64,000 nt of DNA from assembly GCF_000165795.1 (NCBI RefSeq), contig NZ_CM001022.1, positions 1,178,001 to 1,242,000 of the forward strand. Reading direction: 5' to 3'. This document shows positions 9,191-15,752 of the stretch, piece after piece (the first letter of the stretch is position 1; each line of letters starts with the position of its first letter). The stretch comes from Aminomonas paucivorans DSM 12260 (GTDB taxonomy: Bacteria; Synergistota; Synergistia; Synergistales; Synergistaceae). The translations under genes and the position numbers were made by a program. The notes under the pieces were generated by a model. It was not told where the DNA came from and did no database searches. It saw only the letters and a program-made list of their open reading frames with translations.

Positions 9191-9214
9191 CGGGACGAAA
9201 GGACGGTGGTCCCG

Positions 9215-9712
9215 ATGGCGGAAGCGCTGCGTTGGTCCGTGGAATCCCTGGAGATCCCCGAGGGATGCAACCTGGTTCTGGGGCAGAGTCACTTCATCAA
9301 GACCGTGGAGGATCTTTACGAGGCCCTGGTCACCTCTTCCCCTTCCCTGGAGTTCGGCATCGCCTTCTGCGAGGCTTCCGGGGACTGCCTGATCCGCCGG
9401 GACGGCAACGCGCCGGACCTGGTGCAGGCTGCGGTGGAAAACGCCCGGCGGGTGAACGCGGGGCACGTGTTCGTGGTGCTGCTGCGAAACGGATACCCCA
9501 TCAACGTGCTGGACCGGATCAAAAGGGTTCAAGAGGTGTGCCGGGTCTTCGCCGCCACCGCCAATCCCCTCCAGGTCCTGGTGGCCCAGACGGAGCAGGG
9601 CCGGGGCGTGGCGGGGGTGGTGGACGGGTTTCCCACCCTGGGGGTGGAGACGGAGGAGGATGCGGCGGGACGCCGACATCTGCTCCGGGAGATCATCGGC
9701 TACAAGCGCTGA
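9215..9712 (+). CDS. adenosine-specific kinase family protein
   Basis: A 165-residue member of the small adenosine-specific kinase family (PF04008). Family landmarks are [20 protein letters not shown] near residue 20, an [12 protein letters not shown] segment, the [16 protein letters not shown] block and the C-terminal [14 protein letters not shown]. Structures of archaeal members bind adenosine or AMP in a trimer; the cellular role is unclear. ATG 9215 is chosen over GTG 9206 because the purine-rich AAAGGA site sits too close to the GTG. Its end overlaps the convergent symporter gene by 13 bases. Confidence 0.88.
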
Positions 9713-11202: not shown

Positions 11203-12393
11203 ATGGTGGGATGGAAGGGATTTCGAGGCTGGGGGGTCCTGGCCCTCTGTTGTGCGGTCCTCTGGGGGTGCGTCGCCGAGGCCGCCCCCCTTTCCGCCCT
11301 GAAGGAGGGGTGGGGGTGGCCCGTGGTGGTCCTGCCGCCGGAAGGGGGATGGAACTCTCCCGCGGGGCAGTCGGTGAAGTGGGCCCTGCGCACTGCGGAG
11401 AGGGAGGTCTCCCTGACCCATCAGGGGGTCCACGGAAGGGACGTGGTGTTCCTCTACGCCCCCGTGGACACGAAGGAGGAGGCCCTGAAGCGTTTGCCCC
11501 AGTGGCGGGCCATGGGCGCGGGGGCCATCCTCTGCTTCGCCTCCGGGGACCTGGAGGCCGGATTGATCCAGGCCTGCGCGTACCAGGGGCCCTCCCTGAT
11601 CCTGGCGGGCGGGGAGGAGCGGCGCATCCGGGATCCCAAGGGGAAGCCCTGTCCCTACCTCTTCGCCCTGGATCTGTACCGGAACTACCGGGCCAACGCC
11701 TTCGCCGCCCTGGCGGGGTCCCAGGGCAAGGAGCTGATGGGGATTCTGTCGGACCCCTACGCGGTGGACCTGGCCCGCACGGCCCGCCTGTCCGCCCGGT
11801 TCTTGGAGAAGCGGGGTGTCCCCAGCCGGAGTTTCTGGATGTCCGGGGAGGGGGATGATGAAATGGGGGTCCGCCTGGCGGAAATGGAATCCTCCGGAGC
11901 CGGGCGGGTAATCTGCTGGCTGGGGGGCATGGGGACCCGTTCTCTCTGGAAGACGGCGGCTTATTACCGTAAGTCCCTGAAGGTTTGGCATGGAGGGCCC
12001 TACGATCCGCTCCTTCAAGGGGCGGAGGGGGTGCTGTACCTGGAGCAGGACGCCCCCCTTCAGGAACGGCTGAAGGCCCAGGACGCCCTGCGCTGGAACG
12101 TCCTGCGCAAGACCCGGGTTCGGGTGACGGACCTGGTGTTGGCGGGAAAGGCGTACGCTTTGGGACACTGGGCCATCGGGGCTTTCCTGGAGGCGGGGAC
12201 GAACGCCCCTGCCCCGGTGGCTGCCGCCCTGGCCCGGAACCGGGACGTGCCCCTTCTGGGGGAGACCCTCTCCATCAACCCGGGGACCCATCGTCCCCAC
12301 CAGCGGGAGGTGGGGGTGATGCGGATTCGCAAGAACCAGCCCCCCCTCCGGGAGACCTCCCTGAAGGTGACCTCCCAGGGGGTGGTGGAGTGA
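11203..12393 (+). CDS. secreted LivJ-like substrate-binding-fold protein
   Basis: A 396-residue exported protein. The start is ATG 11203 with GGAAGGGGG 9 bases upstream. The N-terminus is a signal sequence with a cysteine at the end of the hydrophobic core (AVLWGC) and a possible signal peptidase I site at AEA just after. The mature part has the alternating pattern of a type I periplasmic binding protein (Peripla_BP_6/LivJ-like): repeated YxGPSLILAGGEE, LSDPYAVDLARTARLSARFLEKRG and WKTAAYYRKSL blocks. It could serve the binding-protein-less liv transporter or act as a sensor. Identification rests on fold pattern and is moderate. Confidence 0.6.
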   Translation: MVGWKGFRGWGVLALCCAVLWGCVAEAAPLSALKEGWGWPVVVLPPEGGWNSPAGQSVKWALRTAEREVSLTHQGVHGRDVVFLYAPVDTKEEALKRLPQWRAMGAGAILCFASGDLEAGLIQACAYQGPSLILAGGEERRIRDPKGKPCPYLFALDLYRNYRANAFAALAGSQGKELMGILSDPYAVDLARTARLSARFLEKRGVPSRSFWMSGEGDDEMGVRLAEMESSGAGRVICWLGGMGTRSLWKTAAYYRKSLKVWHGGPYDPLLQGAEGVLYLEQDAPLQERLKAQDALRWNVLRKTRVRVTDLVLAGKAYALGHWAIGAFLEAGTNAPAPVAAALARNRDVPLLGETLSINPGTHRPHQREVGVMRIRKNQPPLRETSLKVTSQGVVE

Positions 12394-12501: not shown

Positions 12502-12870
12502 ATGAAACTGAGCGAGGCGGTCCAGGCGATCGACGCCAAGGTGCTCTGCTGCGAGGACCAAGTCCGCGATATTGAGGTGCACTATGCCTATGCGTCGGAC
12601 CTGATGAGCGACGTGCTGGCCTTCTGCGCCCCCGGCTCCATGCTTCTCACGGGCCTGACGAACATCCAGATCGTCCGCACCGCCCAGATGCTGGATCTTC
12701 CCGCCATCGTCTTCGTCCGGGGCAAGATGCCCCAGGAGGATACGATCCGTCTGGCGGAGAGCGCTGGGATCCCCATCCTGGTTTCTTCCTGGAGCATGTA
12801 CGAAACCAGCGGGATCCTCTACGACAAGGGCGTCCCCGCCTGCGCCATCAGCCACAAGCAGAAGGAATAG
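12502..12870 (+). CDS. DRTGG domain protein (first of two)
   Basis: A 122-residue stand-alone DRTGG domain (PF07085). The core pattern is visible: YAYASDLMSDVLAFCAPGSMLLTG, then NIQIVRTAQMLDLPAIVFVRGK and a C-terminal GIPILVSSWSMYETSGILY. DRTGG domains are alpha/beta ligand-binding modules, often linked to CBS or phosphotransacetylase proteins; the ligand here is not known. It is the first gene of a five-gene operon (DRTGG, anti-sigma-type ATPase, hydrogenase-like Fe-S protein, DRTGG, PHP) that recurs near electron-bifurcating iron hydrogenases in anaerobes. Confidence 0.82.
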   Translation: MKLSEAVQAIDAKVLCCEDQVRDIEVHYAYASDLMSDVLAFCAPGSMLLTGLTNIQIVRTAQMLDLPAIVFVRGKMPQEDTIRLAESAGIPILVSSWSMYETSGILYDKGVPACAISHKQKE

Positions 12871-12875
12871 GCTTC

Positions 12876-13331
12876 ATGGACGGGCCTGTCTGTCTGGAGT
12901 ACCAGGTGGAGGGGGACGACTTCCTGGCAGCGGGCGAGGCCTCCAACAACATCAAGGAAACCCTCAAGATGTTGGGGGTCCCGTCTGGCATTTGCCGCCG
13001 CGCGGCGGTGGTGACGTACGAAGTGGAAATGAACCTGGTCATCCACGCGGGGGGGGGAACCCTCAAGGCGTCCATCTCTCCGGAGAGACTGGTGATCCAG
13101 GCGGAGGACCAGGGACCGGGGATTCCCGACGTGTCCCTGGCCATCCAGGAGGGCTTCTCCACCGCTCCGGACCACATCCGGGAAATGGGTTTCGGGGCGG
13201 GCATGGGCCTTCCCAACATCAAACGGAACTCCGACGAATTCGGGATCGAGACGGAGGTGGGACGGGGGACCACCGTCCGGTCCGTGATCGTATTCCCTCA
13301 GGAACCGGATAGGGTCACGGAAAGCCAATGA
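12876..13331 (+). CDS. anti-sigma regulatory factor-type ATPase (RsbT/RsbW-like HATPase)
   Basis: A 151-residue GHKL ATPase like the serine kinases RsbW/RsbT/SpoIIAB. The N box YEVEMNLVIHAGGG is near residue 50, the G1 box EDQGPGIPD near 86, and FGAGMGLPNIKRNSDEFGIET and GRGTTV form the rest of the nucleotide site. Such proteins phosphorylate or bind partner switch proteins. No anti-sigma antagonist is encoded beside it; its partners may be the DRTGG or Fe-S proteins of the same operon. It starts 5 bases after the first DRTGG gene. Confidence 0.85.
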   Translation: MDGPVCLEYQVEGDDFLAAGEASNNIKETLKMLGVPSGICRRAAVVTYEVEMNLVIHAGGGTLKASISPERLVIQAEDQGPGIPDVSLAIQEGFSTAPDHIREMGFGAGMGLPNIKRNSDEFGIETEVGRGTTVRSVIVFPQEPDRVTESQ

Positions 13332-13342
13332 GGTGAGCTGCC

Positions 13343-14647
13343 ATGTCCCATAGCGTGAAGGTGTTCGAGGCGGCCTGCAAGGGTTGCGTCAACTGCCTCA
13401 AATCCTGTCCCACCGAAGCCATCCGCGTGGTCAACGGGTCCATCCGGATCCTGCCGGAACTCTGCATCGACTGCGGCGAGTGTCTCCGTACCTGCGGAAA
13501 GAAGGCTCTGGGGCTGGAGGAGGACGACTGGGAACTGATCCGCTCCCACCCGCCGGCGGTGCTGGCGGCGGACCCGACCTTTTTTGCCCAGTTCAGTGCC
13601 TACTGGCATCCTTCCATGGTTCAGGAGGCTCTGAAGGCGTGGGGGATGGAGTTGATCATGGATCAGGCGGCCACGGCCTTTGACCTGTCCGCCTACGCGG
13701 TGGCCCGGGCCTTGGAGATGTCCCCGCGACAGCACCTGCCCCTGATCTCCACGTACTGTCCTTCGGTGGTGCGCCTTATCCAGGTGCGCTTTCCGGAGCT
13801 GTTAGGGCGTCTGGTTCCGGTGGACAACCCCTTGAACATGCTGGGAGATCTCTGGCAGAGGGAGACGGGACGGGAGGATCCCATCACCCTTCTCTCTCCC
13901 TGTCCCTCCAAGATCACCATGGTCCGTACCCCCATCTGCCGGACGTCCACCCCCTTCGACCACGTGGTGTCGGTGCGTCGGGTCACCCGGCAGCTTTTGG
14001 CTGCGGGGCCCCAGATCGCCGAGACCCTGCCGGATCCGTCGAACCGCCGGTGGCTCAAATGGTCCCTCCGGGGGGGGGAGTCCCGGCACGTCCGGGCCTT
14101 CTCCAAGCGCAATCTCACCACCCTGGCGGTCTCGGGGCTGCGGAACACCCTGGACCTCCTTCAGGACCTGGAGCTGGGGCGCCTGGCGGGAGTGGACTTC
14201 GTGGAGTGCCGCATCTGCGATCTGGGCTGCATCGGGGGCATCGCCACCGCGGAGTCCCGCTTTTTGGCCAGTCTGCGCCTTCAGGCCCTGGAAACCCCCT
14301 GGGAACCCACCCCGGAAGAGCTTGAAACCGCAAAGACCCTCTACGAGGAGGATCGCTGGATCCTGGATCGGCCGATCCTGCCTCGGCCCCGACTGCCCCT
14401 GTCGGACAACCTCTCCGAGGCCATGAGCAAGCTCAAGGAAATGAAGGCCATCCATGCGGAGCTTCCCCACATCGACTGCGGTTCCTGCGGCAGGCCCTCC
14501 TGCAAGGCCATGGCGGAGGACATCGTCCGGGGAGAAGGGGAGATCACGGACTGCATCTTCAAGCTGCGGGAGGAGATCGGCGACCTGGCCACTCGGATCG
14601 TCTCCCTGTCGAAGAGCGTCCCCCATACGATCAAGGGGAGGAGCTGA
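13343..14647 (+). CDS. iron-only hydrogenase-like Fe-S protein with ferredoxin and 4Fe-4S domains
   Basis: A 434-residue iron-sulfur protein. Two ferredoxin clusters are seen at Cys12/15/18/22 and Cys41/44/47/51. A hydrogenase large-subunit-like domain follows with remnants of the three H-cluster motifs: TYCPSV (Cys139, where the usual preceding proton-shuttle cysteine is Tyr138), SPCPSK (Cys187) and ECRICDLGC (Cys289, Cys292, Cys296). Near residue 380 is a C-terminal DCGSCGRPSC four-cysteine domain with a later cysteine. The ligating cysteines seem kept while the proton-transfer cysteine is lost, so it may be a redox sensor or electron carrier rather than a hydrogenase. It is the third gene of its operon. 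Confidence 0.82.
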   Translation: MSHSVKVFEAACKGCVNCLKSCPTEAIRVVNGSIRILPELCIDCGECLRTCGKKALGLEEDDWELIRSHPPAVLAADPTFFAQFSAYWHPSMVQEALKAWGMELIMDQAATAFDLSAYAVARALEMSPRQHLPLISTYCPSVVRLIQVRFPELLGRLVPVDNPLNMLGDLWQRETGREDPITLLSPCPSKITMVRTPICRTSTPFDHVVSVRRVTRQLLAAGPQIAETLPDPSNRRWLKWSLRGGESRHVRAFSKRNLTTLAVSGLRNTLDLLQDLELGRLAGVDFVECRICDLGCIGGIATAESRFLASLRLQALETPWEPTPEELETAKTLYEEDRWILDRPILPRPRLPLSDNLSEAMSKLKEMKAIHAELPHIDCGSCGRPSCKAMAEDIVRGEGEITDCIFKLREEIGDLATRIVSLSKSVPHTIKGRS

Positions 14648-14652
14648 TCCCG

Positions 14653-14988
14653 ATGACGGTGGAACAGATTTGCGCGGTCCTGGAGGCTCGGGTCTTTGTG
14701 CCCGGCAAGGGGGACAAGGAGGTCTCCTCGGTCTCCGCCGGGGACCTGCTGAGCTATGTCATGGGCACCGCCCAGGAGGGGGCCCTGTGGGTCACCATCC
14801 AGACCCACCTCAACGTGGCGGCGGTGGCGGTGCTGAAGGACATCCCCCTCATCCTCCTGGCGGCGGGGAGGCAGCCCGCCCCGGACCTGGCGGCTCGGTG
14901 CGCCGAGGAAGGCATCTGTCTGGCGGGGACCGACGCCAGCCTCTACGGCGCCTGCGCCCGACTGGCTTCCCTGGGATTGCCCGGTTGA
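14653..14988 (+). CDS. DRTGG domain protein (second of two)
   Basis: A 111-residue stand-alone DRTGG domain: VSSVSAGDLLSYVMGTAQEG, then a hydrophobic strand, NVAAVAVLKDIPLILLAAGR and a C-terminal GICLAGTDASLYGACARL. It is clearly related in layout to the DRTGG protein at 12502 but diverged in sequence, so the two may form a heteromer or bind different ligands. It starts 5 bases after the Fe-S gene and overlaps the start of the PHP gene (TTGA). Confidence 0.8.
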   Translation: MTVEQICAVLEARVFVPGKGDKEVSSVSAGDLLSYVMGTAQEGALWVTIQTHLNVAAVAVLKDIPLILLAAGRQPAPDLAARCAEEGICLAGTDASLYGACARLASLGLPG

Positions 14989-15752
14989 AGGAACCGCGCC
15001 TTCGCCCCTTCCGGCTGGACCTGCACCTCCATTCGGTCCTTTCTCCCTGCGCGGAGCTGGAGATGGGGGCGGCGGAGATCGCCGCGAGGGCTCGGGAGAT
15101 CGGCCTGGACGGTCTGGCCCTTACGGACCACAACGGGTCGGCCAACGTGCCGGCCCTTCGGCGTGCCTGCGTCGGGGGGCCGGCGGTGTTCGCCGGGGCG
15201 GAGGTGCAGACGGAGGAGGACATCCACGTGGTGTCCCTCTTCCCGGACGACGAGGCCGCCCTGGCCTTTCAGGGGTGGCTTTGGGAGCGCCTTCCCTCCA
15301 CGCCCAACGATCCGGCGGTGTTCGGTTACCAGCTGGTGGTGGACGAAGGCGGAGGAATCCTGGACCAGATCGAACCCCTTCTGGTGCAGGGGGTGGCGGC
15401 GGGGATCGACGAGGTCCTCCGGGAGATCCGATCCCGGGGGGGGCTGTCCATCCTGGCCCACGTGGACCGGCCCTCCTTTTCCTACACCGCCGTGCTGGGC
15501 CCCGTGCCCCCGGACGTGGGAGCGGACGGGGTGGAGTTCTCCTGGCGCGCCCCGGAGGAGGAGCTGCGGGCGTTTCGACGTCGTCTCCCCCACCTTCCCC
15601 TCCTGCGTTCCTCCGACGCCCACCGTCTGGAGGACATGAGAGCGGACCGGACCTCCCTGTTCCTGCTGGAGTCTCCCTGTTTCGAGGAGCTGCGCCTGGC
15701 CCTGCGGGGCGAGGGAGGACGCCGCATCCTGGAACCCTGCCCCTTCCCCTGA
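14985..15752 (+). CDS. PHP domain metal-dependent phosphoesterase
   Basis: A 255-residue PHP-family protein. The first metal motif LDLHLHS, the DHNGSAN block (LALTDHNGS near residue 45), an ILAHVDRPSF motif and a final SSDAHRLEDM motif give the His/Asp set of a trinuclear PHP site. Such enzymes hydrolyse phosphoesters such as nucleotide or histidinol phosphates; the substrate is unknown. The best start is TTG 14985, overlapping the DRTGG stop, because the conserved part begins only about 13 codons later. It is the last gene of the DRTGG/Fe-S operon. Confidence 0.82.
   Translation: MKEPRLRPFRLDLHLHSVLSPCAELEMGAAEIAARAREIGLDGLALTDHNGSANVPALRRACVGGPAVFAGAEVQTEEDIHVVSLFPDDEAALAFQGWLWERLPSTPNDPAVFGYQLVVDEGGGILDQIEPLLVQGVAAGIDEVLREIRSRGGLSILAHVDRPSFSYTAVLGPVPPDVGADGVEFSWRAPEEELRAFRRRLPHLPLLRSSDAHRLEDMRADRTSLFLLESPCFEELRLALRGEGGRRILEPCPFP

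Follow-up and report, generated by a model that had tools for sequence, protein, structure and literature searches.

A conserved five-gene module around a group-D-type [FeFe]-hydrogenase homologue tracks HydB in Synergistota: a candidate redox-signalling system of electron-bifurcating enzymes

A 64,000-nt stretch of the genome of Aminomonas paucivorans DSM 12260 (the window, whose positions are used below unless contig C1 is named) carries on its + strand, at 12502-15752, five closely spaced genes that encode in turn a stand-alone DRTGG protein, a GHKL ATPase, an Fe-S protein with a hydrogenase core (gene 3, here termed FeH), a second DRTGG-fold protein and a PHP-family protein. A preliminary description of this DNA had placed the five genes here, where all were found, and had read them as a redox sensor, signalling by phosphorylation and possibly controlling hydrogen metabolism. 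Comparisons across three phyla support the five genes as a conserved unit, and a survey of Synergistota genomes newly reveals that the unit does not follow [FeFe]-hydrogenase but tracks HydB rather than HydA. We see about even chances that it is a redox-signalling module accompanying enzymes with an electron-bifurcating core of the HydB/HydC (Bfu) type. The module has been known only in part: group D hydrogenase genes beside bifurcating hydrogenases are already published, and its DRTGG and PHP members were not found in the open-access papers searched on hydrogenases or on DRTGG and PHP domains.

Gene order was compared among 61 Synergistota loci (20 regions, 40 later regions and the window) and 80 clostridial loci, the latter mainly from Oscillospiraceae and comprising the best 80 of 584 relatives, those nearest to a Subdoligranulum sequence. 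The five genes occur in order on one strand in 57 of the 61 Synergistota loci, the exceptions being three loci of genus g9 (L040, L045 and L048) in which genes 4 and 5 are missing next to FeH, and one cut by its contig end (L176); the same arrangement is present in 76 of the 80 clostridial loci, the remaining four being cut short. Parabacteroides distasonis has the same five genes plus a second ATPase, and in Subdoligranulum the five are found with one small gene inserted. FeH of Synergistota is 31-36% identical to that of the two other groups, Clostridia and Parabacteroides, and recurrence of the order in three phyla at this level of identity is far beyond chance. A chance neighbourhood of unrelated genes, which would agree with there being no HydABC near the module in A. 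paucivorans, is thereby refuted, and we give it a negligible probability. Within Synergistaceae, FeH-like matches were obtained from all 52 genomes searched, with clear orthologues (>50% identity) in only part of them. Five records of a plasmid collection matched, FeH being of this type in two of them; the module is present in the plasmid-deposited records L056 (NZ_OY725779.1) and L057 (OY725842.1), of which the one from Parabacteroides also has gyrA and is therefore probably a chromosomal piece.

The association with HydB emerged from a presence/absence survey of 149 Synergistota genomes, in which counts are uncorrected for kinship. FeH was called in 72 genomes (E<=1e-60), HydA (TIGR02512) in 89 at E<=1e-60 and 88 over the cut-off, HydF (TIGR03918) in 86 at E<=1e-30 and 85 over the curated cut-off (the extra one being G157), HydG (TIGR03955) in 66 over the cut-off, and the HydB profile matched in 114 at E<=1e-120. 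HydB accompanied FeH in 70 of 72 genomes, as against 44 of the 77 genomes without FeH; HydA showed the reverse, with 34 of 72 against 55 of 77, most of the FeH-less genomes with HydA coming from one genus, g22. At the cut-offs used, none of HydA, HydF and HydG was found in 35 of the 72 FeH-bearing genomes, every one of which has HydB; absence from a draft genome can be false, and several of these 35 are near-closed (e.g. G065, G069, G089). Fisher p-values (0.004, negative, for HydA; 1e-9 for HydB) were set aside as proof, being uncorrected for kinship, and a stricter HydB threshold of at least 1000 bits (63/72 vs 6/77) was not relied on, having been chosen after the list was seen and with a profile built partly from module-linked HydB.

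Seventeen HydB loci from 15 of the genomes lacking HydA, HydF and HydG comprise nine with [NiFe]-hydrogenase, five with formate dehydrogenase, two with GltD-type molybdopterin proteins and one that is cut off; three further HydB loci that were fetched come from genomes outside this set. Judged by these gene contents, H2 would so still be turned over in many such genomes, by an enzyme needing no H-cluster.

The neighbourhoods of the module itself include complexes of the same kind. In Clostridia it is neighboured, in parallel or divergently, by HydC, a second ATPase (HATP2, which we take to be HydD of A. woodii), a thioredoxin-like ferredoxin, HydB and HydA. At least one of HydB and HydC lies within the fetched stretch in 52 of the 80 clostridial loci, 20 being too short to tell, and in 15 of the 61 Synergistota loci. 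The catalytic head in these 15 is a pair of [NiFe] large and small subunits in six (L140, L141, L146, L149, L170, L179), formate dehydrogenase in five (L042, L044, L152, L172, L177), [FeFe] HydA in one (L046) and [FeFe] together with a formate dehydrogenase-like protein in another (L055); in the last two (L153, L173), which are cut by contig ends, no head could be assigned. The NuoG-like subunit of L140 is of molybdopterin type, with no H-domain. The organisation matches that of NiFe-HydABCSL of Acetomicrobium mobile (PMC8880783) and the wider Bfu family (PMC9304861), as far as the available text of these papers describes them: neighbouring HydC-HydD-HydE-HydB genes adjoin the module, their head being of the [FeFe], [NiFe] or formate dehydrogenase type. 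The module itself, however, lies outside these enzymes, and the parts of the two papers at hand mention HisK, HydD and HydP and not the five genes.

The individual proteins agree in kind with the preliminary description. Gene 1 (12502..12870, +, 122 aa) matches Pfam DRTGG at 29.3 bits (cut-off 25.2), and its motifs DLMSDVLAF and TGLxN...RTAxM are kept across 140 relatives. Gene 2 (12876..13331, +, 151 aa), which follows after 5 bp, encodes a SpoIIAB/RsbT-like GHKL ATPase: it matches HATPase_c (E 2.2e-10), finds SpoIIAB as its best-matching solved structures (E 3e-5) and reaches E 5.4e-10 against the NCBIfam anti-sigma F model, but with 39 vs 135 bits, far under the model's cut-off. ATP-site motifs of the N, G1 and G2 types are conserved among its relatives. 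Like SpoIIAB, RsbW and RsbT, the product is a small single-domain GHKL ATPase; it differs from them in having no STAS or sigma-factor partner beside it, the pairing that marks a partner-switching anti-sigma kinase, and in the sub-threshold anti-sigma F match. No STAS substrate protein was found near the module, the three STAS matches of the genome being located elsewhere, unlinked.

Eleven bp downstream of gene 2 lies FeH (13343..14647, +, 434 aa), and 5 bp after FeH lies gene 4 (14653..14988, +, 111 aa). Gene 4 had no Pfam match of its own in the profile scan of window proteins; DRTGG was matched by five of the eight members of its family alignment, its profile aligned with that of gene 1 (hhalign probability 99.5%, E 6.8e-23), and its structural model (pLDDT 95.8) had as nearest Foldseek structure 2ioj, a solved DRTGG domain, at TMq 0.84. 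The fourth-position gene of the Parabacteroides module is named DRTGG by NCBI annotation. On profile, family and fold evidence, gene 4 is a diverged paralogue of gene 1, and the two distinct DRTGG proteins noticed earlier are indeed present. The fold is shared with the DRTGG domains of AF1212 (2ioj) and of the C. perfringens CBS-DRTGG pyrophosphatase (3l2b, 3l31), as is, for gene 1, the Pfam match; the two proteins of the module differ in being stand-alone and in forming a diverged paralogue pair. Gene 5 (14985..15752, +, 255 aa) closes the operon with a PHP-family protein whose start we correct to the TTG at 14985, in a 4-base overlap with the stop codon of gene 4; its Pfam PHP match (E 1.7e-4, 22.4 bits) is under the cut-off of 26.4, and it has the PHP metal-site motifs DLHxH, DHN, AHxDR and SDAH, largely kept in relatives (there SDxH).

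Two genes upstream of the module also recur. Directly before it, on the same strand at 11203-12393, is a periplasmic-binding-protein-like gene with a signal-like start; in 20 Synergistota loci the gene immediately upstream is a relative. An Adenosine-specific kinase family (PF04008) gene is located at 9206-9712, and in 24 Synergistota loci a relative stands no more than four genes ahead of the module.

By architecture FeH is a group-D-type hydrogenase homologue. Group D (M2e) hydrogenases were described as occurring upstream of bifurcating hydrogenases and near kinases, and were assigned to a sensory class by that proximity (Carere et al. 2012, PMC3561251, in the text available); the available text of Land et al. 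2020 mentions only an ATPase and an AraC regulator near group D genes. In the sections of the reports at hand, the characterised member, TamHydS of Thermoanaerobacter mathranii (PMC8163306, PMC10407848, PMC11803613, PMC13104023), has Ala137, is active with a synthetic diiron cofactor and has low H2 activity in vitro (PMC8163306, PMC13104023); under H2 its secondary structure changes and its C-terminal cluster is not reduced by H2 (PMC8163306, PMC10407848, PMC11803613, PMC13104023). A proton path E252-E289-S249-D265 is proposed there for group D, exclusive to it except for E289. FeH has the domain set given for group D in the accessible part of PMC8163306, namely two N-terminal [4Fe-4S] motifs, an H-domain and a C-terminal Cx2Cx4Cx16C, the last formed by C379-C382-C387-C404 and invariant. 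Pfam matches are to Fer4, Fe_hyd_lg_C and FeS domains, with no PAS match in the same scan, and the AlphaFold2 (AF2) model (pLDDT 82) has [FeFe]-hydrogenases (DdHydAB, CpI, HydABC) as its top Foldseek matches. Further group D traits are Ser or Thr in place of Met353 (Ser185 here) and the charged residues named in the available text of PMC13104023: D378, E392, D393 and D403 are present, R28 is equivalent to R30, and Val occupies the position of R32. The cubane cysteines are kept and Cys299 is replaced, as expected of the group, but by Tyr, not the usual Ala. Closeness to a bifurcating group A hydrogenase, a frequent trait of group D and not a strict definition, is absent from the window and found in Clostridia and some Synergistaceae.

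FeH thus shares with TamHydS its domains, the four cubane cysteines, a replaced Cys299, the E252 and E289 equivalents and, in relatives, a module location upstream of HydABC. It differs in having Tyr for Ala137, Arg for Leu291 and Arg/Ser at the S249/D265 positions, in its location away from HydABC here, and in occurring in genomes without HydF and HydG. Group C (M2f; the TmHydS and Ruminococcus albus HydS/HsfB type) likewise combines a hydrogenase-like domain with a C-terminal FeS cluster and is linked to signalling genes, but there with PAS (as published) and a PP2C phosphatase, in contrast to the ATPase, DRTGG and PHP proteins of the module. A search of the genome for other copies, which the preliminary description had proposed, located one HsfB/group C-like homologue at C1:2486046-2487236 (C1:2.486 Mb), preceded by a small thioredoxin-like ferredoxin and followed by a SpoIIE phosphatase; this locus (C1:2484364-2487600) is the genome's second signalling locus derived from a hydrogenase.

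Residues around the H-cluster were surveyed in 142 FeH sequences (61 from Synergistota, 80 clostridial, and Parabacteroides) together with the HydA of A. paucivorans. The four cysteine ligands of the [4Fe-4S]H cubane are invariant in all 142. At the proton-shuttle position, Cys299 of CpI and Ala137 of TamHydS, the window has Tyr138 (codon 13754..13756, +), as do all 61 Synergistota sequences, whereas all 80 clostridial sequences have Ala and Parabacteroides has Phe; the degenerate core described earlier, with its four cubane cysteines and a tyrosine here, is therefore as stated. The position of CpI Met497 and TamHydS Leu291 is Arg290 (codon 14210..14212, +), Arg in 61/61 Synergistota and in Parabacteroides and Asn or Asp in Clostridia, and that of Met353 is Ala in 34 of the 61 Synergistota sequences. 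At the S249/D265 positions, placed by motif as TamHydS was outside the alignment, residues are mostly Arg/Ser in Synergistaceae and Arg243 and Ser264 in the window.

Lys358 of CpI is said to hold a cyanide ligand of the diiron site. Its equivalent, Lys190 in the window (codon 13910..13912, +), gives way to Arg, Val or Met in some relatives without an H-cluster. It is kept in 80/80 clostridial sequences and in 20/20 Synergistota sequences from genomes with HydA, HydF and HydG, but in just 15 of 30 Synergistota sequences from genomes without any of the three, the others having Arg (11), Val (2) or Met (2); in one Met case (G157), HydA is over the cut-off and HydF is a fragment below it. Families f3, f5 and f7, and no others, make up the Arg clade; in them the module is next to complexes with [NiFe] or formate dehydrogenase subunits. 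Since the tree contains only two changes, one to Arg and one to Val/Met, a sign test cannot reach significance and strong statistics were not claimed; loss of Lys358 in maturase-less genomes is suggestive, not proof. The ATP-site motifs of gene 2 and the metal-site motifs of gene 5 are kept both with and without maturases, which argues that the module is under continued selection.

The A. paucivorans genome itself, a single contig, encodes HydA with canonical TSCCP, MPC and CPGGC motifs, HydE and HydF. As previously noted, the window holds no HydA, HydB or HydC gene, profiles of all three finding no match there; the genome-wide check then suggested located HydC-HydE-HydB-HydA at C1:266.5-271.0 kb, ~0.92 Mb from the module. 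No HydG was found over the cut-off in this genome (best E 9e-12), nor beside HydE-HydF. In the reading favoured below, FeH is probably without a working diiron H-cluster in this organism. HydE and HydF are adjacent at C1:697000-711000 (L182) with no HydG found, despite a HydA with intact active-site motifs, and HydA and HydF without HydG over the cut-off also occur in other Synergistota, e.g. G045, G048, G081 and G083. Within C1:259000-271000 (L183, L004), HydC-HydE-HydB-HydA adjoins a HydB-type complex that includes a formate dehydrogenase subunit, so that two bifurcating-type enzymes are neighbours.

In the reading that we favour, FeH would sense electrons through its [4Fe-4S] clusters and pass its redox state to the SpoIIAB/RsbT-like ATPase, whose role would be that of a protein kinase or of a switch driven by ATP. 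The DRTGG pair, with a nucleotide or some similar effector as ligand, would act as partner or target, and the PHP protein would be a phosphoesterase that resets the signal. By adjusting how much HydBC-type enzyme is made or how active it is, the output would keep NAD(P)H and ferredoxin in balance. The ATPase, the DRTGG pair and the PHP protein are thus the likely output chain. Observed are the gene identities, the order they keep, the tracking of HydB and not HydA, and the conservation of cluster ligands and of ATP-site motifs. Electrons (from ferredoxin, or from NAD(P)H via HydBC) are preferred over H2 as the signal because FeH follows HydB, not HydA, in Synergistota and persists where the known route cannot make a diiron site. 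We consider only tentatively, as a somewhat doubtful extension, that Synergistota FeH has lost the diiron site, kept the cubanes, reads the low-potential electron pool and controls all HydBC-type enzymes, whatever their head, through the GHKL kinase and DRTGG pair, as a signalling system that would be new and independent of H2. Of the earlier proposals, a sensor role stands in so far as FeH has the architecture of a family already proposed to be sensory, and a link to hydrogen metabolism in so far as the module adjoins HydABC in relatives; what did not stand is H2 of [FeFe]-hydrogenases as the common factor, given the 35 of 72 genomes without HydA, HydF and HydG. Hydrogenase activity of FeH, proposed earlier as a refutation, would not refute a sensor, since TamHydS has low H2 activity (PMC8163306, in the text at hand).

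Several points weigh against electron sensing for HydBC enzymes. Signal direction, phosphorylation, effector and target are inferred steps. The published view of group D is H2 sensing, and H2 may still matter where [NiFe]-hydrogenase is present, as in 9 of the 17 HydB loci from genomes without HydA, HydF and HydG. Glu remains at the equivalents of TamHydS E252 and E289 even without maturases, residues that are linked to the diiron site in the available literature on TamHydS. Some of the HydB sequences behind the profile are themselves linked to the module, and the co-occurrence counts ignore kinship. Neither HydB nor HydC is found, despite at least 9 kb on both sides, in eight clostridial and nine Synergistota loci, the window included; HydBC of this genome is 0.92 Mb distant; and genes 4 and 5 are missing next to FeH in the three g9 loci.

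Sensing of H2 by a complete H-cluster in FeH, with control of HydABC through the ATPase, is the published alternative and, for this genome, an unlikely one. In its favour, FeH shares the architecture of TamHydS, in which an active H-cluster forms from a synthetic diiron precursor and H2 alters the secondary structure (PMC8163306, PMC13104023, in the sections available); in Clostridia the module often adjoins HydABC, Lys358 is kept in all 80 sequences, and HydF is present in 35 of the 48 FeH-bearing genomes searched (48 of the 80 loci; completeness unknown). Against it stand the many FeH-bearing Synergistota genomes without maturases, the lack of HydG in A. paucivorans, the presence of Tyr and Arg at sites next to the diiron centre that are otherwise small or Met, and the replacement of the proton-path residues S249 and D265 by Arg and Ser. 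A pure H2-sensor role is doubtful in Synergistota because the module occurs without HydA, HydF and HydG and, in the loci examined, with HydB joined to other heads; as a general function there, it is rejected on the co-occurrence counts.

The tracking of HydB, not of a particular catalytic head, could also reflect a factor that assembles or repairs the Fe-S flavoprotein core of HydB/HydC, with FeH as cluster scaffold and the GHKL protein as an ATP-driven chaperone. HydB can exist without the module, however, having matched in 44 of 77 FeH-less genomes, and active HydABC has reportedly been made without it; the DRTGG pair and PHP protein would be unexpected in such a role, which we regard as improbable. 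In the available text of PMC8880783, HydD and HisK of the A. mobile operon are assumed to serve maturation and/or regulation, which is in keeping with such a factor. Least probable of the functional alternatives, and very unlikely, is FeH as a slow catalytic hydrogenase or electron valve regulated by the other genes: TamHydS does turn over H2 in vitro (PMC8163306, in the text at hand), but FeH has altered residues along the proton path, half of the Synergistota genomes with FeH have no maturases, and HydG is missing here.

For group D [FeFe]-hydrogenases, proposed as H2 sensors, the ATPase, the DRTGG pair and the PHP protein are candidates for the missing signalling pathway. Occurrence of the module without H-cluster maturases, beside [NiFe]-hydrogenase and formate dehydrogenase complexes, calls into question H2 as the signal, a point that a single protein of a single genome would suffice to test. 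If the module controls HydBC enzymes in general, electron bifurcation would have a common regulator across anaerobes, among them gut Clostridia and Parabacteroides.

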